From: Dehalococcoidia bacterium
Lineage (GTDB): Bacteria > Chloroflexota > Dehalococcoidia > GIF9 > AB-539-J10
NCBI GenBank assembly: GCA_030602785.1
Contig: JAUVZB010000021.1
Location: 1-39,044 of the forward strand
Length of the DNA stretch: 39,044 nt
Direction: 5' to 3'
Shown: positions 187-12,031 of the stretch, one piece after another
Numbering within the stretch: position 1 is the stretch's first letter
Layout of the letters: every line of letters begins with the position of its first letter
The notes under the pieces: generated by a model
What the model was told of the DNA's origin: nothing
Databases searched by the model: none
What the model saw: only the letters and a program-made list of their open reading frames with translations
Translations under genes and position numbers: made by a program

Positions 187-1371
187 ATGGCTGATTCGCT
201 GCGACAGCGTTTTGCCGACATCTGCAGATTCGAGCGCAAAGGGGACCTCTGTCTGCTGGCCCCCTGGCTGAACGATTTCTGGATTGAGACGCCCGACGTA
301 TGGGTCGGCAAGGGTGCTCCATCCATCCTCGCCGATAGCAGAAAGCTCCGCTCCTACTTTGGGTTCGAGCATATCCGTCTGATGAGAGAGATCCAGACCG
401 GACTCTACATGGACAAACGGCTCGACGTTGCCGGCAACGAATACGTGTACGCCATCCCTCCCATCCTGCCGACTTACGACACGCGCATTCTGGGTGAAGA
501 CGACCACACTGTGTCCCTCGTGAACGAGGGCGGTCAGACCGTGCGTGTGTTCAAGAATGACCCACAGAAGATGCCGATGTATCTCGACCAGCCTGTGAAG
601 GACAAGGCCTCGTGGCTGGAGTACAAGAAGCGGCTCGATCCTCACACCCTTGGCCGGCTGCCCCAGGACTGGGAGGCCTACGTGGCCAAGATGAACGCCA
701 AGGACGAGCCTGTGCTGCTGAACGCAGGCAGTTTCTTCGGCTTCCTGCGCGAGTGGATGGGGCTTGAGCCACTGCTATTCGCGTTCCACGATGAGCCGGC
801 GCTCATCGAAGACATGATGGACACCCTCTGCGACCTCGAAGTCGAGTGCCTCACGACAGTCCTGCAGGACATCCATGTCGACGCCGCCACTTTCTGGGAG
901 GACATGGCGTTCAAGACCGGGCCCCTGATTTCACCGACCATGTTCCGCCGTTTCATGATGCCCCGCTACAAGGTCATCACCGAGCTGCTCCACTCGAAGG
1001 GGGTCGACGTCATCTTCGTAGACAGCGACGGAAACCTCAACCACCTGATACCACTCTGGATTGAGAGCGGAGTCAACTTCTTCTGGCCCCTGGAGTGTGC
1101 TGCAGGAAACGACGCCGTCGCGCTGCGAAAGAAATACGGCACGGATGCCATTCTGGGCGGAAACATCGATAAGCGCGTCCTTCTCAAAGGCAAGGACGTC
1201 ATACGCGAGGAAGTGATGTCGAAGGTACCATACCTCCTGGAGACAGGAGGCTACTTCCCGTCAGTGGACCATTTCGTGCCGCCCGATGCGCCTTTCGAGA
1301 ACTTCCTCTACCTCATCAACACGTTGAGGGAGGTTGGGGGCCTTCCGCCGCTGCCTTCCGCTGTGGAGTAG
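187..1371 (+). CDS. URO-D/MtaA superfamily protein (uroporphyrinogen decarboxylase-like)
   Basis: A protein of about 394 residues with the TIM-barrel layout of the uroporphyrinogen decarboxylase/corrinoid methyltransferase superfamily. Family-like segments are the central FFGFLREWMG, the VDSDGNL strand, the LGGNIDKRVL strand and a C-terminal GGYFPSVDHFVPPD motif with the conserved His. Members include heme-pathway UROD and methyltransferases acting on methylated corrinoid or coenzyme M; substrate cannot be assigned here. No heme or corrinoid genes are nearby, so a heme role is unlikely. AAGGAGG at 175-181 favours the second of two adjacent ATGs (187) over 184. The 3' end overlaps convergent tyrA by 56 bp. 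The gene directly follows the small repeat element, which may contribute its upstream region. Confidence 0.75.
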   Translation: MADSLRQRFADICRFERKGDLCLLAPWLNDFWIETPDVWVGKGAPSILADSRKLRSYFGFEHIRLMREIQTGLYMDKRLDVAGNEYVYAIPPILPTYDTRILGEDDHTVSLVNEGGQTVRVFKNDPQKMPMYLDQPVKDKASWLEYKKRLDPHTLGRLPQDWEAYVAKMNAKDEPVLLNAGSFFGFLREWMGLEPLLFAFHDEPALIEDMMDTLCDLEVECLTTVLQDIHVDAATFWEDMAFKTGPLISPTMFRRFMMPRYKVITELLHSKGVDVIFVDSDGNLNHLIPLWIESGVNFFWPLECAAGNDAVALRKKYGTDAILGGNIDKRVLLKGKDVIREEVMSKVPYLLETGGYFPSVDHFVPPDAPFENFLYLINTLREVGGLPPLPSAVE

Positions 1372-2251
1372 TCGGGTACCGCTGCAGCGCTTCAAGCATC
1401 GCGTACATTCGCTCGTACGCGTCGCCCGCCCTCTCGTCGACTGAGCCCAGCTCCTTCCCAAGAGCGCTGAACTCCTCGAGAAGACCGTCACGGTCTCCGT
1501 CCCGCACCAGGCGCGAGAAGTGCGCGGCGCTCGATTCCAGCGCGGACGCGACGGAAGGAGCAGCAGGTAGAGCTGCCAGCAGCGTACTGTACAGGTCTCT
1601 CCCCACACCGAGCATGCTCTCTGTCAGCGCCATCAGCACCTCGAGAGAGGTTCCACTAACCTCACGAGCCTCCGCGAGACGCCCGGTGCCGAGAATGGTC
1701 CTTGCCACAACCGCAACGACAAGCGCCGGGATGAGCAGAACAACCGCCATGACTTCATCGTGTCTATCGGGAGTCATCGTCACGACGTGCGCGCCTTGTG
1801 GCTCGATATAGCGCTGCACTCTGGCCGCAAGCTCGCGACTCCGCTCATCGATAGGTGTCAGAACGACGTTGTGCCCCGAGAGGCTTTCCGCGCCCGCACC
1901 GAACATGGGGTGCACCCCAAGGAACACCGCTCGCGGCAAGTACATCTCCGCCGCCTTCTGGGGACGTCCCTTGAGCGAACTGAGGTCGATGACCGCCTGT
2001 CCCTCGCGAACGTGGGCTGACAGTTCTCGCATGGCCGGCTCGACCGCATCCACCGGCACCGCGATGATGACTACATCAGCACCACCTACATCCCCGAATC
2101 GGGCGACGCGACAGCGCTTCATGCTGCCTGCAAGCCGTTCCACCTCATCGCGCCGCGAATCCACAAGCAACAGGTCGTGGCCCTGCTCGTGCAGCAATGC
2201 AGCAAACCAGCTTCCCATCTTGCCGGCCGCCCCGATTATCGCGATGCTCAT
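1316..2251 (-). CDS. tyrA: Prephenate dehydrogenase (TyrA)
   Basis: Oxidatively decarboxylates prephenate to 4-hydroxyphenylpyruvate, the tyrosine branch. The 311-residue protein begins with a Rossmann dinucleotide-binding segment (IAIIGAAGKMG) followed by an acidic strand end (LLLVDSRR), as in NAD(P)-dependent TyrA. The central HPMFGAGAESLSGHNVVLTP segment fits the family substrate-site region. The start at 2251 is chosen because its ATG overlaps the pheA stop as ATGA, which implies translational coupling. It is the last gene of the nine-gene aromatic operon. Its final 56 bp overlap the convergent URO-D-like gene and the Pro/Ala-rich C-terminus there looks unconserved. No terminator is visible in the overlap. 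Confidence 0.9.
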   Translation of the reverse strand: MSIAIIGAAGKMGSWFAALLHEQGHDLLLVDSRRDEVERLAGSMKRCRVARFGDVGGADVVIIAVPVDAVEPAMRELSAHVREGQAVIDLSSLKGRPQKAAEMYLPRAVFLGVHPMFGAGAESLSGHNVVLTPIDERSRELAARVQRYIEPQGAHVVTMTPDRHDEVMAVVLLIPALVVAVVARTILGTGRLAEAREVSGTSLEVLMALTESMLGVGRDLYSTLLAALPAAPSVASALESSAAHFSRLVRDGDRDGLLEEFSALGKELGSVDERAGDAYERMYAMLEALQRYPTTPQRKAAAEGPQPPSTC

Positions 2252-3339
2252 GCTCTCTGCCAAACCGACTTCGCCTTTGGATAGGACCCGAGCACCCGAA
2301 TGAACAGGCAGTGCTTCATGAGACTCTCGAGTGCCTCTGCAAAATGCGGTTCCTGGCTGTGCCCTTCGAAATCCAGGTAGAAGTTGTACTCCCACGGCTT
2401 CTGCCGCGTGGGGCGTGACTCTATCTTCGTGAGGTTCACGCCTCGCTTTGCGAACGCCCGGAGAGCCTCGTACAGCGTTCCGGGCCCGGAATCGTGCTTC
2501 AAGGAGAAGACAATCGATGTCTTGTCAGCACCGGACGGGGCCACGTCCCGCTTCGAAAGGATGAAGAACCTCGTGTAGTTGTTCGGGTTATCCTCGATAC
2601 CTGGCGCCACGATGTTCATGCCGTATATCTCGGCCGCGCGCGCACTCCCTACCGAGGCAACTCCGCCGGCGTCCAGTTCGCCGAGCATCTTCACGCTTCC
2701 CGCCGTGTCATAGGCAGGAATCAACTCGCACCCCAAGTGCGACAGGAAGGTGCGGCACTGGCCGAGGGCCTGCGGATGAGAGTACACCTGCCGGATGTCG
2801 CCGAGCGTCACCCCCGGTGCTGCGATGAGGCAGTGGACAATGCGCAGTGCCGTTTCGCCGCAGACACGAACGTCGTGCTCCAGGAAGAGGTCGTAGACCC
2901 TGCTGATGCTCCCCTCCGAGGAGTTCTCCACAGGAACGATACCGAAGCGCGTCTGCTCCTCCACCACAGCACGGAACACATCGTCAAAGCTCTCGCAAGG
3001 GCGTGACGAGACCGACCTGCCGAAGAAATCCAGGGCCGCCTGCTCGCTGAACGCCCCCGGCTCGCCTTGAAACGCAACTGTCGTGTGTTGCACTGATTTC
3101 GAAGTCTCTATCACGCGTTCGTAGATTCGCTCGACATCGCGCCCCTCCACACCCATCTCAGAGGCCATGGCCCGCACTTTCTCAAGCACCCGCTGCTCAC
3201 GCGCGGCGTCAAGCACCGGCAATCCGCTGCGTTCCTTCTCTTCTCCGATGGCCCGCGCATACTTCAGCCTGTCGCTCAACAGGCGCACGATCTCCCTGTC
3301 GGTGGCGTCGATGTTTCGCCGCAATTCGTCCATGCTCAT
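2248..3339 (-). CDS. pheA: Bifunctional chorismate mutase/prephenate dehydratase (P-protein)
   Basis: Converts chorismate to prephenate and then phenylpyruvate, the phenylalanine branch. The 363-residue protein has three domains in order. First is an AroQ-type helical chorismate mutase (about residues 1-85, with IDATDREIVRLLSDRLKYA). Second is prephenate dehydratase, with VAFQGEPGAFSEQAA, PVENSSEGS, YSHPQALGQC and the catalytic NYTRFF segment. Third is a C-terminal ACT domain with the ESRP motif that binds Phe for feedback inhibition. The start is set at 3339, where ATG overlaps the aroC stop (ATGA). An upstream in-frame start at 3384 would add an unconserved Pro/Arg-rich extension inside aroC and is rejected. 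Confidence 0.93.
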   Translation of the reverse strand: MSMDELRRNIDATDREIVRLLSDRLKYARAIGEEKERSGLPVLDAAREQRVLEKVRAMASEMGVEGRDVERIYERVIETSKSVQHTTVAFQGEPGAFSEQAALDFFGRSVSSRPCESFDDVFRAVVEEQTRFGIVPVENSSEGSISRVYDLFLEHDVRVCGETALRIVHCLIAAPGVTLGDIRQVYSHPQALGQCRTFLSHLGCELIPAYDTAGSVKMLGELDAGGVASVGSARAAEIYGMNIVAPGIEDNPNNYTRFFILSKRDVAPSGADKTSIVFSLKHDSGPGTLYEALRAFAKRGVNLTKIESRPTRQKPWEYNFYLDFEGHSQEPHFAEALESLMKHCLFIRVLGSYPKAKSVWQRA

Positions 3340-4427
3340 TTCACACACCCCGATATCAGGCCGCCCTGCAGGCCGAGGTCGCACAGCACCACCGCTACCA
3401 TCGCTTCAACCACCACCACTGCCCTAGGAACGATGCAGGCATCGTGCCTTCCCGATATTGACATCTCCGCATCCTGCCATGTCTTCAGATTCACACTCCT
3501 CTGTTTGACAGACACAGACGGTGTAGGCTTGACGGCCGCTCTGACAACAATCGGCATGCCCGTCGTGAGCCCTCCAAGGATACCTCCTGCGTCGTTCTTC
3601 GTTGTCACAACCCGGTCGCCTGCGACGGTGAAAGGGTCGTTCGCCTGCGAGCCTCTCACTGCGCTCAATGCGAAGCCCCCTCCAAACTCGACCGCCTTGA
3701 CAGCCGGTATGGCGAAGAGGGCGCGCGCAATCTCACCGTCCACAGTTGAGAACACCGGCTCGCCAATGCCGACCGGCAGGCCTGTCGCCACGCACTCGAT
3801 GACACCGCCGACGCTATCGCCACCAGCCCTGGCATCCTCGATCTCTCGTTCCATCGCCGCTGCAGCGGGGCCATCGCAGCACGAGAGCGCATTTGTGCGA
3901 CAGGACGCGCGCGCCGATTCGGCTTCCGTCCCGGGTGCTCGCACACGCCCTATCCGGACGGTATGCGCAAAGACCTCGACACCGCAGCCGGCAAGGACGG
4001 CTTTCGCCACGGCGCCCGCCATTACGAAACCGGCCGTTATGCGCCCGGAGAAGCGGCCTCCACCCCTGGGGTCATTCATGCCGCCATATTTCACGCCCGC
4101 GGGGTAGTCCGCGTGCCCCGGCCGCGGTATGTCTGCAAGCGGACCGTACGCGTCGGATTGGATATTCGTGTTCTCCACAAGCATGCAGATGGGAGCACCG
4201 GTTGTGTGACCCTCCAGCGTGCCTGACAGAATTCTCGCGTTGTCCGGCTCGCGGCGCGAAGTCGCGCCCGGCTGACCCGAGGGCCGTCGCCGGTCAAGTT
4301 CCTGCTGCACGCACTCGCGACTGAGCTGCACTCCCGCCGGGCAGCCATCAATCACGACGCCCACGCACTCTCCGTGGCTCTCGCCGAAACTGGTCACGCG
4401 GAACAGCGTTCCAAGGCTATTGCTCAT
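3336..4427 (-). CDS. aroC: Chorismate synthase
   Basis: Seventh and last step of the shikimate pathway: 5-enolpyruvylshikimate-3-phosphate to chorismate, using reduced FMN. The 363-residue protein shows family hallmarks from the N-terminus: SFGESHGECVGVVIDGCPAG, DRRRPSGQ with RREPD, HADYPAGVKYGG and RGGGRFSGRITAGF. The ATG at 4427 has a GGAGG about 9 bp upstream and lies inside the 3' end of aroA (11-bp overlap). Its own stop overlaps pheA by 4 bp. Length and motifs are normal, so the gene appears intact. Confidence 0.95.
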   Translation of the reverse strand: MSNSLGTLFRVTSFGESHGECVGVVIDGCPAGVQLSRECVQQELDRRRPSGQPGATSRREPDNARILSGTLEGHTTGAPICMLVENTNIQSDAYGPLADIPRPGHADYPAGVKYGGMNDPRGGGRFSGRITAGFVMAGAVAKAVLAGCGVEVFAHTVRIGRVRAPGTEAESARASCRTNALSCCDGPAAAAMEREIEDARAGGDSVGGVIECVATGLPVGIGEPVFSTVDGEIARALFAIPAVKAVEFGGGFALSAVRGSQANDPFTVAGDRVVTTKNDAGGILGGLTTGMPIVVRAAVKPTPSVSVKQRSVNLKTWQDAEMSISGRHDACIVPRAVVVVEAMVAVVLCDLGLQGGLISGCVK

Positions 4428-5682
4428 CCAGTTGCACCTCCACGCCCAGGCGTTGCAGGTCCGCCCAGAACTCGGGGTAGGTCTTGTTCACGCACTCGGC
4501 TCCCTCCACGACAACGTCACCGACGACGGCGCCGAGCACACCGAAGGCCATCGCAATCCTGTGGTCGCCTGCTGACGATACCACAGCACCACCAGCGCCG
4601 CCACCGTGCACGGAGATATGGTTGTCCCCCACCTCGACAGCGACGCCCATTCGCTGCAGTCCCGCGACCATTGCCGCCACCCTGTCGGACTCCTTGTCGC
4701 GAGCCCTGGCTATTCCGGTGAGGGTAGTAATTCCCTCCGCGGCTGCCCCGAGCGCCGCGGCCACCGGCAGCAGGTCAATGGCCCCCGAGAGATCCACTCG
4801 CACGGCCTTCAATCGAGAGCGCCGTACCCTGAGTCCTTCAGCACTCGTGGTCACACTGGCATTCATGTCACGCAGCAGGGCCACTATTGCAGTGTCGGCC
4901 TGAAGGCTGGAGGGGTTCAGCCCGGCAACTGTCACATCACCCGCGAGCGCGCCCAGCGCCAGGAGCGCCGATGCGGCTGACCAGTCTCCTTCGACGATGT
5001 AGCGCCGCGGGGTGTAGCCGCCGGGCAGAACGCTGAAGGAGCGCGCGTCAGCGCTCGACCGCACGTCCGCTCCGAAAGCCCGCATGCATTCCATCGTCAT
5101 CATCACGTAGCGCTCGGACACCAGCGGCGTCTCAAGCTCTATCTCCAGCCCCTCGTCGTACCGGGGTCCTGAAAGAAGGAGGGCTGAGAGGAATTGCGAA
5201 CTCACATCTCCACGGAGGCGCACCCTGCCATTCCCCACAGGAATGCCAACAACGGTCACAGCCCCTGTTGCAGTGTCAACGTCGCATGCGGCGCCAAGTT
5301 GCTGTATGGCCTCCACCAGCGGCATGACGGGTCTTCGAGCGAGCGACGGCGCACAGTGAAACATCGTTGCGCCCGGTATGGTGGCCGCGATTCCCATCAG
5401 GAATCGCAAGGTTGCCGCGGACTCCCGGCACCGCAGGCCTGCGTTCGTCGTGTGAAGTGCCCCTCCCCGAATATGTAGTCCATCCGCAGCACGGGAGGCC
5501 TGCGCTCCCAGCGTTGTCACGCATTCAAGGACGGCCGCCGCGTCGTCAGCCTCAAGCACATTCTCGAGCACGCTCTCGCCGTCAGCCACAGCCGCGCACA
5601 CGGCAGCACGGATGCTGTAGCTCTTCGAGCCGGGTGCGCGGACAACACCACCTGCCCTACTCTGTGCTATCAGCGTCCTCAT
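4417..5682 (-). CDS. aroA: 3-phosphoshikimate 1-carboxyvinyltransferase (EPSP synthase)
   Basis: Transfers the enolpyruvyl group of PEP to shikimate-3-phosphate. The 421-residue protein has the N-terminal substrate loop APGSKSYSIRA, a second loop CRESAATLRFL in place of the classic GNAGTAMR, and the C-terminal NKTYPEFWADLQRLG. The ESAATLRF form resembles the divergent (archaeal-like) class and could alter glyphosate response, but this is not testable from sequence alone. The ATG at 5682 is preceded by GGGAG and overlaps the end of aroK by 26 bp. The gene overlaps aroC by 11 bp. Confidence 0.93.
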   Translation of the reverse strand: MRTLIAQSRAGGVVRAPGSKSYSIRAAVCAAVADGESVLENVLEADDAAAVLECVTTLGAQASRAADGLHIRGGALHTTNAGLRCRESAATLRFLMGIAATIPGATMFHCAPSLARRPVMPLVEAIQQLGAACDVDTATGAVTVVGIPVGNGRVRLRGDVSSQFLSALLLSGPRYDEGLEIELETPLVSERYVMMTMECMRAFGADVRSSADARSFSVLPGGYTPRRYIVEGDWSAASALLALGALAGDVTVAGLNPSSLQADTAIVALLRDMNASVTTSAEGLRVRRSRLKAVRVDLSGAIDLLPVAAALGAAAEGITTLTGIARARDKESDRVAAMVAGLQRMGVAVEVGDNHISVHGGGAGGAVVSSAGDHRIAMAFGVLGAVVGDVVVEGAECVNKTYPEFWADLQRLGVEVQLDEQ

Positions 5683-6196
5683 GCTCTCCCAGCGATTGCG
5701 CTACTCGTTCCACCACCTCGTCTACACTCAGCTCGGCGGTATCCACTGTCAGCTCCGCTGCCCTGGTGTAGAAAGGCCTTCGCTGTTCCAGTAGCTCGGT
5801 CACGCGCTGCTCTCTCGTGGAGCCGCTCAGCAGAGGCCGCACGTCGGACGGGCTTCCGAGTCGCTCGATGACACTGTCCGCCGACACGACCAGATGTACA
5901 ACCACAGCTCCAGACTTCAGGCAGGTCACATTCTCCGGTCGCAACACCACACCACCCCCACACGCGATCACGCTATCCCTGCCGGCGGAAACGTCGCGCA
6001 CAACTTCGGCCTCCAGGTCGCGAAACCGTTGCTCGCCCCACCTGGCAAAAATCTCCGCTATGCTGATTCCCGCCCGTCCTTCAATCAGCGAATCGGTCTC
6101 CACGAACGCCTTGCCGAGTCGAGAGGCAAGCCGCCATCCGACGGCCGACTTGCCCGCGCACATGAATCCGATGAGGGCCACGTTAGACCGCTGCAC
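5657..6196 (-). CDS. aroK: Shikimate kinase
   Basis: Phosphorylates shikimate at the 3-hydroxyl using ATP. The 179-residue P-loop protein has the Walker A GFMCAGKSAVG near residue 10, the shikimate-binding DSLIEGRAGISIAEIFARWGE segment with FRDLE, and the CGGGVVLRPEN loop. The start is a GTG at 6196 with GAGGAGG about 9 bp upstream. It overlaps the aroE stop by 14 bp. Length is typical for AroK/AroL. It is tightly packed in the aro operon and so probably transcribed only from the attenuated promoter upstream of aroF. Confidence 0.93.
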   Translation of the reverse strand: MQRSNVALIGFMCAGKSAVGWRLASRLGKAFVETDSLIEGRAGISIAEIFARWGEQRFRDLEAEVVRDVSAGRDSVIACGGGVVLRPENVTCLKSGAVVVHLVVSADSVIERLGSPSDVRPLLSGSTREQRVTELLEQRRPFYTRAAELTVDTAELSVDEVVERVAQSLGEHEDADSTE

Positions 6197-7046
6197 GACC
6201 GAGTTCCTCCTCGACCGCAGAGCGCATTACCTCGACGGGAGCCTGCACGCCGGTCCACAGTTCAAACGCGAGGGCCCCCTGCCACACAAGCATCTCCACA
6301 CCACTCACCGTCCGGGCCCCGCGTTCCGCGGCCTCCTGCAGCAGAGTGGTCCGTCGGGGGTTGTACACAATATCGCACACCACGAGGTCCTCGCGCAGCA
6401 GCTGCGCAGGGCAGGGAGAATCGCCAGTCACCGGGTTCATCCCGACAGAGGTCGTATTGACGAGGAGCGAGGCTGAAGGAAGCCAGTGCTGCAGCGACTC
6501 GTCACTCAGCGGACCGTGTTCTATGACAATACCTGTCGCCCCCGCCACATCAGCGGCGAGCGCCTGCGCCCGCGCCACCCCACGGTTCAGTATCACAAGT
6601 CTTGCCCCTCTGTCGGCCAGCGAGAACGCCGCAGCTCTCCCTGCGCCACCTGCCCCCAGCAACACTACTGTCCTGTCACGCACTTCGACATCATGGTCCT
6701 TCAGCGCCCGGGCGAAGCCCGCTGCATCGGTGTTGTAGCCCCTCAGCAACCCACCGTCGTTCACAATCGTGTTCACTGCGCCGATCCGCCGCGCGACATC
6801 ATCAATCGAGTCCAGAAAGGGTCTTATGTCGACTTTGTGCGGCACAGTCACGTTCAAGCCTCGTATCCCCATCGCCTTCATGGCAGCGGTGCCTGCCTCT
6901 GCCTCGCCTCTCCGCAACCTGAACGCTACGTAGACCCAATCAAGTCCGGCCGCAGCGAAAGCCGCGTTCTGCATGGCAGGCGACATCGAGTGCTCGACGG
7001 GATCGCCGACGATTCCGCACACAACAGTCCTGCCCGAAGGACGCAT
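6183..7046 (-). CDS. aroE: Shikimate dehydrogenase
   Basis: NADPH-dependent reduction of 3-dehydroshikimate to shikimate. The roughly 287-residue protein shows GDPVEHSMSPAMQNAAF (shikimate binding), NVTVPHK with the catalytic Lys, NTDAAGF and the nucleotide-binding LGAGGAGRAAAF. I prefer the ATG at 7046: it lies one base past the aroD stop, has TGGGAG about 9 bp upstream, and places the conserved core at the usual distance. An in-frame ATG at 7070 would overlap aroD by 23 bp but has a poor ribosome-binding site. Confidence 0.92.
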   Translation of the reverse strand: MRPSGRTVVCGIVGDPVEHSMSPAMQNAAFAAAGLDWVYVAFRLRRGEAEAGTAAMKAMGIRGLNVTVPHKVDIRPFLDSIDDVARRIGAVNTIVNDGGLLRGYNTDAAGFARALKDHDVEVRDRTVVLLGAGGAGRAAAFSLADRGARLVILNRGVARAQALAADVAGATGIVIEHGPLSDESLQHWLPSASLLVNTTSVGMNPVTGDSPCPAQLLREDLVVCDIVYNPRRTTLLQEAAERGARTVSGVEMLVWQGALAFELWTGVQAPVEVMRSAVEEELGRAAV

Positions 7047-7047
7047 C

Positions 7048-7719
7048 TCAGATGACTCCCATGGTTTCATATATCGCCCTGAGGTCCCCTACTGTCAACT
7101 GCCCCGGCGCCGACTCGTGGCCGGACGCAAGTGATGCATACGTGAAGCGCGCTCCGGCAAGGGGCGCCAGGACGCGGCTGGGCATCCCGAGCGGCCCCAT
7201 GGCAAGCACCACTATGCCCTCGTTGCTGAAGCGACTCGCAAGCCTCAGCACCGTGGCGTTGTCGCCGGCCTCCCGCGCCGTCGTGGCGACCTTGCATATG
7301 TCAGCGCCCAGCCGGCGCTCGCGCGCCACGATATCGGCCAGCTCGTTCTCACTGTCCGTGCCATGAACATCGTGATAGGACACGATTGTCCGAGCGCGAC
7401 CCTTGAGGTCAGCGACTAGAGCGCCGGCGCCCTCCGTGGACAGCTCGATGTCCACCATGTGCGCTCCGGCTTCCACAGCCTGCCGTAGCGAGGCCAGGCG
7501 GTCACAATCGGGGCAATCGGCAGCCCCGCCTTCGCTCGCAACCCGGTTGCACGCAATCCACGGTCGCGGCAGCGACCCGACGATGCCGCGCCAATCATCC
7601 CCTATGAGGTCAATCCTGACCTCGTACAGGGAGACGTCGTCGCGGACGGCGAGCGCCGCTTTCAGGTCGCCGCTCGAAGCAATGCAGGCGCAAATTTCAG
7701 GCAACGACATTGGACTCAA
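7048..7719 (-). CDS. aroD: 3-dehydroquinate dehydratase, type I
   Basis: Dehydrates 3-dehydroquinate to 3-dehydroshikimate through a Schiff base. The 223-residue protein carries the type I signatures: YEVRIDLI near the N-terminus, the SYHD histidine and the catalytic lysine in DICKVAT, with a C-terminal substrate loop ASGHESAPGQLTVGDLR. Two starts are possible: TTG at 7719, with GAGG 9 bp upstream, or ATG at 7710 with a distant site. The aroB stop overlaps the start by about 20 bp. Bacteria often use the unrelated type II enzyme; this operon uses type I. Confidence 0.92.
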   Translation of the reverse strand: MSPMSLPEICACIASSGDLKAALAVRDDVSLYEVRIDLIGDDWRGIVGSLPRPWIACNRVASEGGAADCPDCDRLASLRQAVEAGAHMVDIELSTEGAGALVADLKGRARTIVSYHDVHGTDSENELADIVARERRLGADICKVATTAREAGDNATVLRLASRFSNEGIVVLAMGPLGMPSRVLAPLAGARFTYASLASGHESAPGQLTVGDLRAIYETMGVI

Positions 7720-8788
7720 GTACCATTTCCTCTACGAGATTCCCGGGCACGTCGTTGCGAATAATGACCTCGCCCAGCCGGGTAGGCAGAACGAATCGCA
7801 AGCGACCGCCCGCCCGCTTCTTGTCACGGGCCATTGCAGCCAATACGACCGAGGGCTCAATGCCCTCCGGCATCGTAACGGGCAGACCAGTCCGCACGAG
7901 CAACGACCTGAGGCGCGTCAGCTCTCCCGGTTCGAGCAGTCCCATGGCAACAGACATCTTCGCAGCCGCAACCATGCCGATAGCCACTCCCTCTCCATGG
8001 CAGAGAGTGAATCCGGAGGCCGTCTCAATACCGTGCCCGATCGTGTGCCCGAAGTTGAGGATGTTCCGCAGGCCATGGTCGCGCTCGTCTTCCTGGACAA
8101 CTGCCGCCTTGATTCCGGCGGTCACGGCAACCATCTTCTCCAGGACGCTCTCGTCCCGCAGCAGCACGTCGTCCATCCGGCTCTCCAGGAACTCAAGGAA
8201 TCCCTCGTCCCTGATTACGGCGCTCTTGATGACTTCGGCCAGGCCGTTACGGAACTCGCGTTCCGGGAGCCGGAGGAGCGTAGAGATGTCCGCCAGAACC
8301 GCAACCGGCTGATGGAATCCTCCAACGTTGTTCTTCAGCATCCCATGATTGACGGCCACCTTGCCTCCGAGGCTGCTATCCACCTGGGCAAGCAACGTGG
8401 TAGGCACGTGTACAAGGGGCAACCCTCGAAAGTAGGTGGCCGCAACGAAACCGGTCAGGTCACCGATGACGCCTCCACCCAGCGCCAGGAGGGGCGTTGA
8501 ACGCTCTACTGCGAGCTCGTTCAGGCGGCTGTAAATCACTCCGGCAGTCTCCAGTGACTTGCGCTCCTCACCCGGGGGAATCACGATGACTTCCGGCTCG
8601 AAGCCCGCGTCCCGCAGACTGCGCTCCAATTCCTCTCCGAAGAGCGCTTCCACGGTCTCGTCGGTCACAACAACCACCCTGCCGGAGAAGCCAAGGCGGT
8701 CAAGCTCGTCGCCTGCCTGGCGCAGCACGCCGGTTCCGATGCTCATCCGATACACGGTTCCAGAGCACCACACTCGAGTTGTCCTCAT
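7697..8788 (-). CDS. aroB: 3-dehydroquinate synthase
   Basis: Second step of the pathway: DAHP to 3-dehydroquinate, with NAD and a divalent metal. The 363-residue protein shows the NAD-binding GGGVIGDLTGFVAATYFRG, the PTTLLAQVDSSLGGK motif, the Lys/Asn-rich KNNVGGFHQP segment, and metal-site residues in GLAEVIK and NFGHTIGHGIE plus a further His in HGEGVAIGM. The ATG at 8788 lies one base after the aroF stop. Length is normal and all recognisable catalytic segments are present. Confidence 0.95.
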   Translation of the reverse strand: MRTTRVWCSGTVYRMSIGTGVLRQAGDELDRLGFSGRVVVVTDETVEALFGEELERSLRDAGFEPEVIVIPPGEERKSLETAGVIYSRLNELAVERSTPLLALGGGVIGDLTGFVAATYFRGLPLVHVPTTLLAQVDSSLGGKVAVNHGMLKNNVGGFHQPVAVLADISTLLRLPEREFRNGLAEVIKSAVIRDEGFLEFLESRMDDVLLRDESVLEKMVAVTAGIKAAVVQEDERDHGLRNILNFGHTIGHGIETASGFTLCHGEGVAIGMVAAAKMSVAMGLLEPGELTRLRSLLVRTGLPVTMPEGIEPSVVLAAMARDKKRAGGRLRFVLPTRLGEVIIRNDVPGNLVEEMVLESNVVA

Positions 8789-8789
8789 G

Positions 8790-9845
8790 TCAGTGTTCCC
8801 TCACCAGGTGGTACAGCTTGCCACACGCCTCAATGATATCTTTCAGCTCGTCGGGCGTCACCATCTGCGGGCCATCCACCAGCGCTTCAGATGGGTCGTA
8901 GTGCGACTCTATCATCAGACCGTCCGCGCCCGCCGCAATGGATGCGCAGCTCATGTCAAAGATGAGGTCGCGGCGGCCCGTGGCGTGGCTCGGGTCGACT
9001 ATCACAGGCAGATAGGTCTCGTTGTGAATGACCGGGACAGCGGCGATATCCAGCGTGTACCTCGTGTAACTCTTGCCCTTGCCCATCGGGACGATGCCCC
9101 GTTCGCAGAGGATGATGTCCTTGTTGCCCTCCGCCGCGATGTACTCGCTGAAAGAGAGAAGCTCCTCGATGCTCGCGCCGAAGTGCCGCTTGAGCAGCAC
9201 CGGCTTGTGCTGACGGGCCACCTCTACCAAGAGGTCCTGGTCGTACATGTTGCGGGCACCGATGTGCATGATGTCCACGTAGCGCGCCACCAGCTCCACG
9301 ACGGATTCGCCCCTGACCTCGGTCACCACGGGCATGTCGAACTTGTCGCCCGCCTCCCGCAGCCAGCTCAGCGCCTCTTCAGCACTTTCGATGCTGCTCG
9401 CACCCAGGCCCTGGAAGGAGTGCACGGAGCTTCTTGGTTTGAAGACACCGCCGCGCAGGATGTGCGCTCCGGCCGCCTTGACCTCTTCCGCGATGCGCAT
9501 GAGCTGCGGTTTGCTCTCGACGGCGCAGGGCCCGGCGATGATGACGGGCTCGCCGTTGCCGATGTGAATGTCACCGATGCTGACCCGCTTGTGGGCGCCG
9601 GGTTCTCCCAGGAAGCGCGCATACGCCTTGCTGATGAGCTTGTACGGTGTCTCCACCATCGCCGCCTCTCTGACCCCCGGGAAGGAGGCAAGCCTGTCGA
9701 AAGCGAGTCGACGCTCATCGCCCACGGGTCCGATGACCGTCATATAGTCACCGCGAGACACATCGGCGCGGAGTCCGTTCCGCTCTATCTCCGCGACGAC
9801 CCTCTGTATGTCCTCCTCCGTCGCATCCGTCTTCATGATTATCAT
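8790..9845 (-). CDS. aroF: 3-deoxy-7-phosphoheptulonate synthase (DAHP synthase, type I-beta)
   Basis: Commits PEP and erythrose 4-phosphate to aromatic biosynthesis. The 351-residue protein has an N-terminal ferredoxin-like domain (about 1-75), used for allosteric feedback in Thermotoga-type enzymes, then the KDSA-like barrel. Metal ligands are visible: Cys107 in AGPCAVES, His in DPSHATG, Glu in MIESHYDP and Asp in VDGPQ. The phosphate-binding loop reads [11 protein letters not shown] (136-146) instead of the usual KPRTSPYSFQG. The ATG at 9845 has AAGGAG 8 bp upstream. It is the first structural gene after the leader attenuator, where transcript control would act on the whole pathway. Confidence 0.94.
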
Positions 9846-9912
9846 CTTGTTGTCTCCTTACATCTCCGCGCTGCCTGCGGTCCCTGCGGTCGCCCGGTCA
9901 GCGCAAAAAGAA

Positions 9913-9936
9913 AAGGACCCTCCCGGGAGGGTCCTT
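9913..9936 (-). terminator. Attenuator terminator ahead of aroF
   Basis: On the minus strand a perfect 12-bp inverted repeat (AAGGACCCTCCC then GGGAGGGTCCTT) is followed by TTCTTTTT, a canonical intrinsic terminator 68 bp before the aroF start. Its 5' arm (GACCCTCCCGGG, 9933 to 9922) can instead pair with CCCGGGAGCGGTC (9988 to 9976) at the end of the leader ORF. That alternative helix has 12 base pairs with one bulged C. The competing structures make this an attenuator rather than a plain terminator. Confidence 0.88.
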
Positions 9937-9964
9937 CTTTCATTCTGATGAGTTCTACGCTACA

Positions 9965-10054
9965 TCACGTTGCAAGACCGCTCCCGGGCGTGCGGGCCGG
10001 ATAGCTAAACCAACAGCTGAAGACGAAGTAGGCCCGGGAACTGTTCATTGTCAT
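9965..10054 (-). CDS. Aromatic-rich leader peptide of the aro operon
   Basis: A 29-codon ORF (ATG at 10054, TGA ending at 9965) between the promoter and the attenuator. Residues 9-18 read YFVFSCWFSY: two Tyr, three Phe and one Trp in ten codons. Such runs are the hallmark of ribosome-stalling leader peptides in amino-acid operons. The stop codon lies 8 nt past the antiterminator strand (9988-9976). A ribosome finishing the peptide would cover that strand and let the terminator form; one stalled on the aromatic codons would leave it free. The ribosome-binding site is weak (GGTGAG). A second in-frame ATG is at 10048. The peptide itself probably has no function after synthesis. Confidence 0.85.
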   Translation of the reverse strand: MTMNSSRAYFVFSCWFSYPARTPGSGLAT

Positions 10055-10081
10055 CCGCTCACCGCGTGAAGCTGATTGGGG

Positions 10082-10111
10082 ATTGTAGAGAGGCACAGGG
10101 GCTCGTGTCAA
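10082..10111 (-). promoter_or_regulatory. Sigma70-type promoter of the aro leader and operon
   Basis: On the minus strand a perfect TTGACA (10111-10106) is followed by an 18-bp spacer and TACAAT (10087-10082). The predicted transcript start near 10075 gives about 20 nt before the leader ATG at 10054. No other strong promoter was seen between here and aroF, and the operon genes overlap or nearly abut, so this promoter probably drives all nine. Confidence 0.75.
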
Positions 10112-10696: not shown

Positions 10697-12031
10697 CTAT
10701 GCAATCATCTTGCCGGGTAGCCACAGAATCAGTTGAGGGAATGCTATGCACAACGCCAGTCCAAGGACAATGCAGAATACAAACGGCCAGACGCCTTTGA
10801 TGATGGTCGCCATATCTATCCCCAGACCCGGGTCAACAGCCCCCCTCAGATAGAAAATGGCGGACGCGAACGGCGGCGTCATGAACGACATCTGCAAGTT
10901 GATGATCACCATCATTCCAAACCACAGAGGGTCAAAGCCAAGCACGGGCGCAATCGGCGAGATAATCGGTATCATGATGAACACGATTCCAATCCAGTCG
11001 ATGAAGAACCCGAGCATGAACACGATGAACATGATTACCGCGAACGAACCCCAACGCCCACCGGGAGCGCCAATGATGAGCTCCTCAAGCACGTTCCCAC
11101 AACCCGCCCCGATGAACACGCCTACGTAGGCGAACGACAGCGCGCCGATGAGGTAGATCATGGCGCTAACCCGCATCGCCTGCGTCAAGGTGTCCTTCAG
11201 CACAGGGAAGGAGAACTTCTTGTACCCCACGGCAAGCCCCATCGACGCAAGAGCTCCAACCGCGGCCGCCTCGGTCGGCGGCGCGATGCCCATAAAGATG
11301 CTTCCCAGCACCGCCATAATCAGAACCGCTGTTGGAGCCAGCGCCCCCACCAGCAGCTTCGTCTTGTACCAGAACGAGAACTGTCGCTCCTCGGCAGGCA
11401 CGGCAGGACCCAGTTCCTTGTGTATGGCGCAGCGTATCGCAATGTAGCCGCAATACAATGTCGACAGTACAAAGCCAGGGATGAACGCCGCCATGAACAG
11501 CTTCCCTACCGAGACCCCCGCCATCGGTCCGTAGATGACAAGCATGATGCTCGGTGGAATCAGGATGCCAAGCGTTCCTCCCGCACATACTGCACCACTC
11601 GCCAGCGACTTGTCGTAGTTCCGTTTAATCATCGCCGGCAGCGCGAAGATAGCCAGCATCGATACCGATGCTCCGATAACACCCACGCACGCCGCCAGGG
11701 CCGTTCCCAGCAGCACCGTGACGATCGCAAGACCTCCGTGCAATCCGCTCAGCCACACGTACAATGCGTCATACATCTTCCCCGCTATCCCCGACTTCTC
11801 CAGCATCACCCCCATGAACACGAACAACGGAATCGCCAGCAGAGTGTACGAGTGCACCAAGCTGAACAGTCGTCCGTACAGTAGGGCGGGAACCGCCTTC
11901 CCGTATACCAGGAAACCAAACAGCAGCCCCATCGCACCCACGGGAATCGCAAGGGGGTATCCAATCAACACGCCCACGAGCACGCCCGCGAGCATCAGAA
12001 AGGTGAGCAGTTCTGGACTGATGTCTAACAA
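10697..12031 (-). CDS. dctM: TRAP transporter large membrane subunit (DctM family)
   Basis: The 444-residue membrane protein is the ion-coupled permease of a tripartite ATP-independent periplasmic transporter. It has about 12 hydrophobic segments and DctM hallmarks such as the N-terminal GVLIGYPLAIPVGAMGLLFG, the GGTLGILIPPSIMLVIYG loop, and PPTEAAAVGA in the second half. The start is a TTG at 12031 with GGAGG 6 bp upstream, overlapping the dctQ stop by 7 bp. It works with DctQ and the DctP lipoprotein to import an organic acid or sugar acid using a Na+ or H+ gradient. The neighbouring enolase-superfamily enzyme suggests an aldonic or uronic acid substrate (inference). Confidence 0.93.
   Translation of the reverse strand: MLDISPELLTFLMLAGVLVGVLIGYPLAIPVGAMGLLFGFLVYGKAVPALLYGRLFSLVHSYTLLAIPLFVFMGVMLEKSGIAGKMYDALYVWLSGLHGGLAIVTVLLGTALAACVGVIGASVSMLAIFALPAMIKRNYDKSLASGAVCAGGTLGILIPPSIMLVIYGPMAGVSVGKLFMAAFIPGFVLSTLYCGYIAIRCAIHKELGPAVPAEERQFSFWYKTKLLVGALAPTAVLIMAVLGSIFMGIAPPTEAAAVGALASMGLAVGYKKFSFPVLKDTLTQAMRVSAMIYLIGALSFAYVGVFIGAGCGNVLEELIIGAPGGRWGSFAVIMFIVFMLGFFIDWIGIVFIMIPIISPIAPVLGFDPLWFGMMVIINLQMSFMTPPFASAIFYLRGAVDPGLGIDMATIIKGVWPFVFCIVLGLALCIAFPQLILWLPGKMIA

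Follow-up and report, generated by a model that had tools for sequence, protein, structure and literature searches.

The Aromatic Operon and Its Leader Region

The window, i.e., the whole stretch of 39,044 nucleotides from a Dehalococcoidia bacterium analyzed here, carries nine genes on the minus strand, from aroF to tyrA, whose ends are adjacent or overlapping from position 9845 to 1316. The first gene of the operon, aroF (8790–9845), encodes DAHP synthase (NCBIfam NF006421 and TIGR01361) and is followed by aroB, aroD, aroE, aroK, aroA, aroC, pheA, and tyrA (1316–8788), which were assigned from coordinates and NCBIfam families. The pheA product was identified as chorismate mutase-prephenate dehydratase by its NCBIfam match. 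For aroD, shikimate kinase, and tyrA the NCBIfam matches were consistent with the assignment, yet under the curated cut-offs.

The region ahead of aroF was found to contain the promoter, the 29-codon aromatic ORF, the pairing strand within it, and the terminator that the original prediction had described, all on the minus strand. The sigma-70-type promoter TTGACA-18-TACAAT (10082–10111) has 11 of 12 matches and scores best among the five promoter-like sites within the window's first 12 kb. The leader peptide ORF, MTMNSSRAYFVFSCWFSYPARTPGSGLAT (9965–10054), begins with an ATG at 10054 and ends with a TGA at 9967–9965; starting instead from the in-frame ATG at 10048 would shorten it to 27 codons. 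It contains the control codon run YFVFSCWFSY (10001–10030), with two Tyr, three Phe, and one Trp codon. The candidate antiterminator strand (region 2), CCCGGGAGCGGTC (9976–9988), is located 12 nt past the last aromatic codon and 8 nt ahead of the stop codon, and can also be written as CCCGGGAG(C)GGTC. The intrinsic terminator (regions 3:4), AAGGACCCTC-CCGG-GAGGGTCCTT followed by a T-rich tail (9911–9938), was the strongest among ten terminators found by the terminator scan in the first 12 kb.

Region 2 and the 5′ arm of the terminator can form 12–13 bp with one bulge at –23.7 kcal/mol, in agreement with the duplex proposed originally. For the protector strand (region 1), GTTCCCGGGC (10032–10041), two partners had been suggested. 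Pairing with the antiterminator strand stood, in that 10041–10032 pairs with 9989–9980 and is present in the MFE fold, while GGCCCG at 9998–9993 was not a conserved partner. The region therefore holds what an attenuator is recognized by, at the level of sequence: an ORF with control codons, a predicted terminator before the first gene, a predicted antiterminator sharing the 5′ arm of that terminator, and a competing protector. When the window leader was folded alone its stability was unremarkable compared to shuffled sequences (z = –1.45). Since a single-leader fold is uninformative, the support for an attenuator rests on comparison.

The Leader Is Conserved Across Dehalococcoidia

A search with AroF as query gave 80 loci in named Dehalococcoidia/Chloroflexota MAGs, 79 of them with sufficient upstream sequence. 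Each of the 79 usable loci has a terminator with a short ORF, rich in aromatic codons, that ends close to it. A stricter automatic detector was positive at 75 of 78 aroF genes compared to 3 of 930 other genes, each of at least 200 aa, on the same contigs as aroF, and two of the three positive control ORFs appear, by sequence, to be coding sequence of the upstream gene. The TTGACA was retained in 79 of 87 leaders, with spacers of mostly 17–18 nt. The complete order aroF-aroB-aroD-aroE-aroK-aroA-aroC-pheA-tyrA was present at 34 of the 42 loci with at least 8 kb of downstream sequence, and aroF was alone at three of the 42. In relatives that keep the operon, the promoter is retained together with the aromatic codon run and the mutually exclusive helices, and nothing in this comparison spoke against the original prediction.

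The leader was present in the window's genus both at the operon copy and at a stand-alone second aroF, and was located ahead of aroF in three single-contig genomes (L258, L260, and L261). Among aroF genes with at least 61% identity the leader is almost always present; the exceptions are one truncated contig and a second aroF copy (L239, 61% identical) that has no leader. Relatives of aroF in the same family at about 45–50% identity had no leader and a different gene context.

A covariance model of the leader gave matches in 76 of 393 genomes of the class, which is a lower bound; the model misses G005:C122, G267:C4, and G300:C45, which were positive by hand or by coordinates. One weak match (L198, E = 0.049) appears to be spurious. 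When 301 genomes from the phylum were sampled, the 20 matches obtained all fell inside Dehalococcoidia, although a model trained on this class does not prove absence elsewhere. Altogether, the predicted leader switch before aroF is class-wide in Dehalococcoidia.

The leader ATG was located at most 9 nt past the –10 box in 17 of 82 leaders (e.g., L007/L057, L063, L069, L074, and L097). The mRNA for the leader peptide may be leaderless in the species concerned.

Predicted Competing Helices Show Compensatory Changes

We compared the pairing of the strand past the last aromatic codon with the terminator 5′ arm and loop, either its own or one swapped from another leader, for 87 leaders (one contig being represented twice). 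Pairing with the own terminator had a mean of –19.5 kcal/mol compared to –15.6 kcal/mol for swapped terminators (sd 0.30; best of 2000 permutations –16.6). The antiterminator-terminator pairing is specific to each leader. Part of the terminator loop takes part in the pairing with region 2 in addition to the arm, so that the match is not a mere by-product of the terminator stem.

Pair changes and covariation were counted in an alignment of 44 sequences. Two-sided changes were found in 34 cells for the antiterminator, 35 for the terminator, and 10 for the protector. The covariation score was 0.302 for the antiterminator (0.183 shuffled), 0.347 for the terminator (0.252 shuffled), and 0.138 for the protector (0.069 shuffled), with none of 500 shuffles reaching the observed value in any of the three cases; these shuffles ignore relatedness. 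Relatedness is controlled for in the register test, where the covariation of all three helices peaked in the correct register relative to slid registers, and the swap test agrees.

Most of the 87 leaders have a region 2 that begins about 9–17 nt past the last aromatic codon and stops about 5–25 nt short of the last base of the stop codon, a spacing that fits the ribosome footprint. Given the usual bacterial footprint, a ribosome stalled on the final aromatic codon would leave region 2 just free, while one standing on the stop codon would mask most of it.

Region 1 was found to be more variable. In the window's genus a CCGGG-type region 1 sits immediately ahead of the aromatic run or at its start, and most of the 11 leaders compared allow it to pair with region 2, among them L052 with a compensatory CCAGG/CCTGG protector pair. 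Elsewhere in the class, a small GCGCA/TGCGC hairpin immediately past the aromatic run serves as the candidate region 1, again with compensatory variants. The class has, as far as these predicted structures tell, two placements of region 1, which makes the protector step more variable than the antiterminator and terminator helices.

These compensatory changes also bear on what the leader ORF is for. Attenuator peptides acting in trans exist, such as peTrpL (PMC7298713), and the ORF ahead of aroF might likewise encode a functional small protein, with the terminator being an ordinary partial one that keeps aroF expression at a constant level. However, the peptide sequence is not kept outside the aromatic run and the tail encoded by region 2, it tracks the amino acid produced downstream, and the antiterminator pairing is maintained through compensatory change, which leaves a small protein with a slim chance.

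Amino Acids Probably Sensed by the Leader

Of the 605 aromatic codons in the 87 leaders, 332 are for Tyr, 202 for Phe, and 71 for Trp. Tyr codons are present in 85 of the 87, the same number have Phe codons, and 67 have Trp codons. Synonymous codons are both used, with TAT found 197 times and TAC 135 times, and TTT 153 times and TTC 49 times. The original prediction that one leader senses all three aromatic amino acids was therefore borne out for Tyr and Phe, for which sensing by the aroF leader is well supported by the codon content, but it was weakened for Trp. Sensing of Trp would be secondary, because trpE in the window's genus sits behind a T-box.

The operon leaders of the window's genus contain 22 Tyr, 19 Phe, and 5 Trp codons, while leaders of the stand-alone second DAHP synthase (L006, L031, L033, L034, and L035) contain 21 Phe, 3 Tyr, and 5 Trp codons. 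These counts, which come from related sequences, suggest that the two DAHP synthases follow different amino acids.

The trpE T-box scored above the Rfam threshold in three members of the window's genus. The region upstream of trpE in the window's own genome matched RF00230 with 88.8 bits (E = 1.1e-18), just below the threshold of 93. Four relatives were found to have a leader peptide with a WWW run ahead of trpE instead of a T-box.

The relatives with the WWW leader (L133, L135, L136, and L146) have close relatives with a T-box (L141, L142, L145, and L149). Judged from these predicted elements, the sensing system has switched on the same gene, trpE, among Dehalococcoidia.

With T-boxes controlling trpE in the same genus, the aroF terminator could be thought to be worked by a T-box or a metabolite riboswitch rather than by translation. 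In the window the Rfam covariance search gave no match to the T-box family RF00230 and no family at threshold; the weak matches, such as Phe_leader RF01859 with 20 bits against a threshold of 55, were centered on the terminator hairpin. In addition, the aroF leader ahead of the terminator is only about 140 nt long and mostly coding, compared to about 270 nt for the trpE T-boxes, and its conserved feature is the codons. Direct RNA sensing at aroF is thereby largely refuted and its chance is slimmer still, the T-box being found at trpE instead. A chance aromatic ORF next to a terminator that belongs to the upstream TRAP transporter gene was rejected as having a negligible probability, since the TRAP permease gene, although on the same strand, ends at 10697, about 760 nt before the terminator, with a strong promoter intervening that is conserved along with the terminator, and since the leader arrangement is conserved together with aroF.

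Proposed Mechanism

The reading that we favor, with a probability of roughly 0.93, is that the element ahead of aroF-tyrA is a ribosome-mediated (leader-peptide) transcription attenuator. An attenuator of the trp and pheA type was what had been proposed for the window, and conservation, covariation, and the difference between own and swapped pairing all support it. From the observed elements, their spacing, conservation, and covariation, and their linkage to the operon, we infer where transcription would start, where the ribosome would stall, when read-through would occur, and which tRNAs would be sensed.

RNA polymerase would start shortly ahead of the leader ORF. A shortage of charged Tyr-tRNA or Phe-tRNA, and less so of Trp-tRNA, would stall the ribosome in YFVFSCWFSY, where it would mask region 1 and leave region 2 (9988–9976) free. 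Free region 2 would then pair with the 5′ arm of the terminator, no terminator would form, and aroF-tyrA would be transcribed. With amino acids in ample supply the ribosome would reach the stop codon and cover region 2, so that the terminator could form and transcription would end. If the leader is not translated, region 1 would sequester region 2, and the terminator would be expected to form as well.

Comparison with Known Systems

The proposed attenuator resembles the enterobacterial trpL and pheL leaders (RF00513 and RF01859) in having a control-codon ORF, mutually exclusive protector, antiterminator, and terminator helices, and a terminator just before the first structural gene. There is no sequence relation between them, and several features differ. 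The Dehalococcoidia leader mixes Tyr, Phe, and Trp codons, its antiterminator strand is located inside the ORF, region 1 is ahead of the control codons in the window's genus, and the whole shikimate trunk plus both the Phe and the Tyr branch would be controlled.

The original prediction knew of no described example. None covering aroF through tyrA was found in our literature search, but leader peptides ahead of aroF have been described before. For aroF of Corynebacterium glutamicum (cg1129) a putative Phe-Tyr-Phe leader peptide was reported (PMC4046766). This leader, which we liken to ours by its description, is also mixed in Phe and Tyr and ahead of a DAHP synthase gene, but it belongs to another phylum and was described for aroF and not for a nine-gene aroF-tyrA operon. 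The Acholeplasma uORFC-13-1 motif upstream of aroF (PMC8632094) has the same order of promoter, uORF with Phe codon(s), terminator, and aroF, but has only a U-run/Phe codon and is limited to Acholeplasma and unassigned environmental sequences. For aroF-tyrA of E. coli, likewise a DAHP synthase gene and tyrA under possible Tyr-tRNA control, attenuation was hypothesized (Camakaris, 1980, cited in PMC2659441); as it is cited there this is a hypothesis only, and that citation describes no aromatic-codon leader of the Dehalococcoidia form. T-boxes were reported for Dehalococcoides ahead of ileS, trpE, and a trpB-like gene, the genes named in that account not including aroF (PMC2494555). They too make transcription in these bacteria responsive to amino acids, that of trpE included, but T-boxes bind uncharged tRNA directly and without a leader peptide, unlike the aroF leader.

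A genome survey from 2010 was aware of amino acid leader peptides in Proteobacteria and Actinobacteria and, beyond these, only of the new cases that it described itself in Firmicutes (PMC2965389); a survey from 2013 that included Chloroflexi took attenuator leaders to be mostly gamma-proteobacterial (PMC3766115). Our search of the literature, the coverage of which is incomplete, found no description of an aroF leader in Chloroflexota and none of the same design being reused on other operons in Dehalococcoidia. The mechanism is classical. The clade, the target (the common pathway with the Phe and Tyr branches), and the reuse on other operons had no precedent in the literature covered. Textbook attenuation, so far tied mainly to Proteobacteria and Actinobacteria, would thus be class-wide in Dehalococcoidia, on a complete aromatic pathway as a single unit, and the leader would offer a simple readout of the need for aromatic amino acids in organohalide-respiring bacteria, which do not lend themselves easily to manipulation.

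The Same Design on Other Operons

At other matches to the leader model, the codon run suits the gene located downstream. The run LILSILIIV was found ahead of acetolactate synthase, also in the window's genome (L167), and VVVAVMLIV ahead of ilvE. A Thr-rich TMTTTITL is located ahead of homoserine dehydrogenase (L197, near 1030) and FIFTF ahead of pheS (L206, near 6218); these two leaders resemble enterobacterial thr and pheST attenuation. Tyr-rich leaders, one with eight consecutive Tyr codons, were found ahead of hisC-type transaminases (L245:1076–1212, L247, L248, and L251), which suggests that these transaminases act in aromatic amino acid synthesis.

The largest target group consists of 28 loci with AMP-forming CoA ligases, mostly with Phe-rich leaders (L172, L173, L178, L183, L257, L259, and L262 among others). 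At the loci examined, genes for a Liv-type ABC transporter come after the CoA ligase gene, and two complete genomes have a PaaK-like gene there as well. Our guess is that this operon serves salvage of aryl acids under control by Phe. The wider proposal, that leader-peptide attenuation is a general form of amino acid control in Dehalococcoidia where the codon run names the function of the operon, and that the operon of CoA ligase, Liv-type ABC transporter, and PaaK-like genes takes up and activates aryl acids (e.g., phenylacetate) to feed Phe synthesis, we put at slightly under even odds. Leader codons could be used to assign function to uncharacterized transporters and ligases behind the same switch.

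The leader before the acetolactate synthase gene ilvB, ARIVSRGLILSILIIVRT, with its run of Leu, Ile, and Val codons, was located at L167:7078–7195 (G000:C59:37078–37195) and was also found in L168, L169, and L272. A second leader, with Val and Ile codons, is located about 8 kb off, before ilvE, in two members of the genus.
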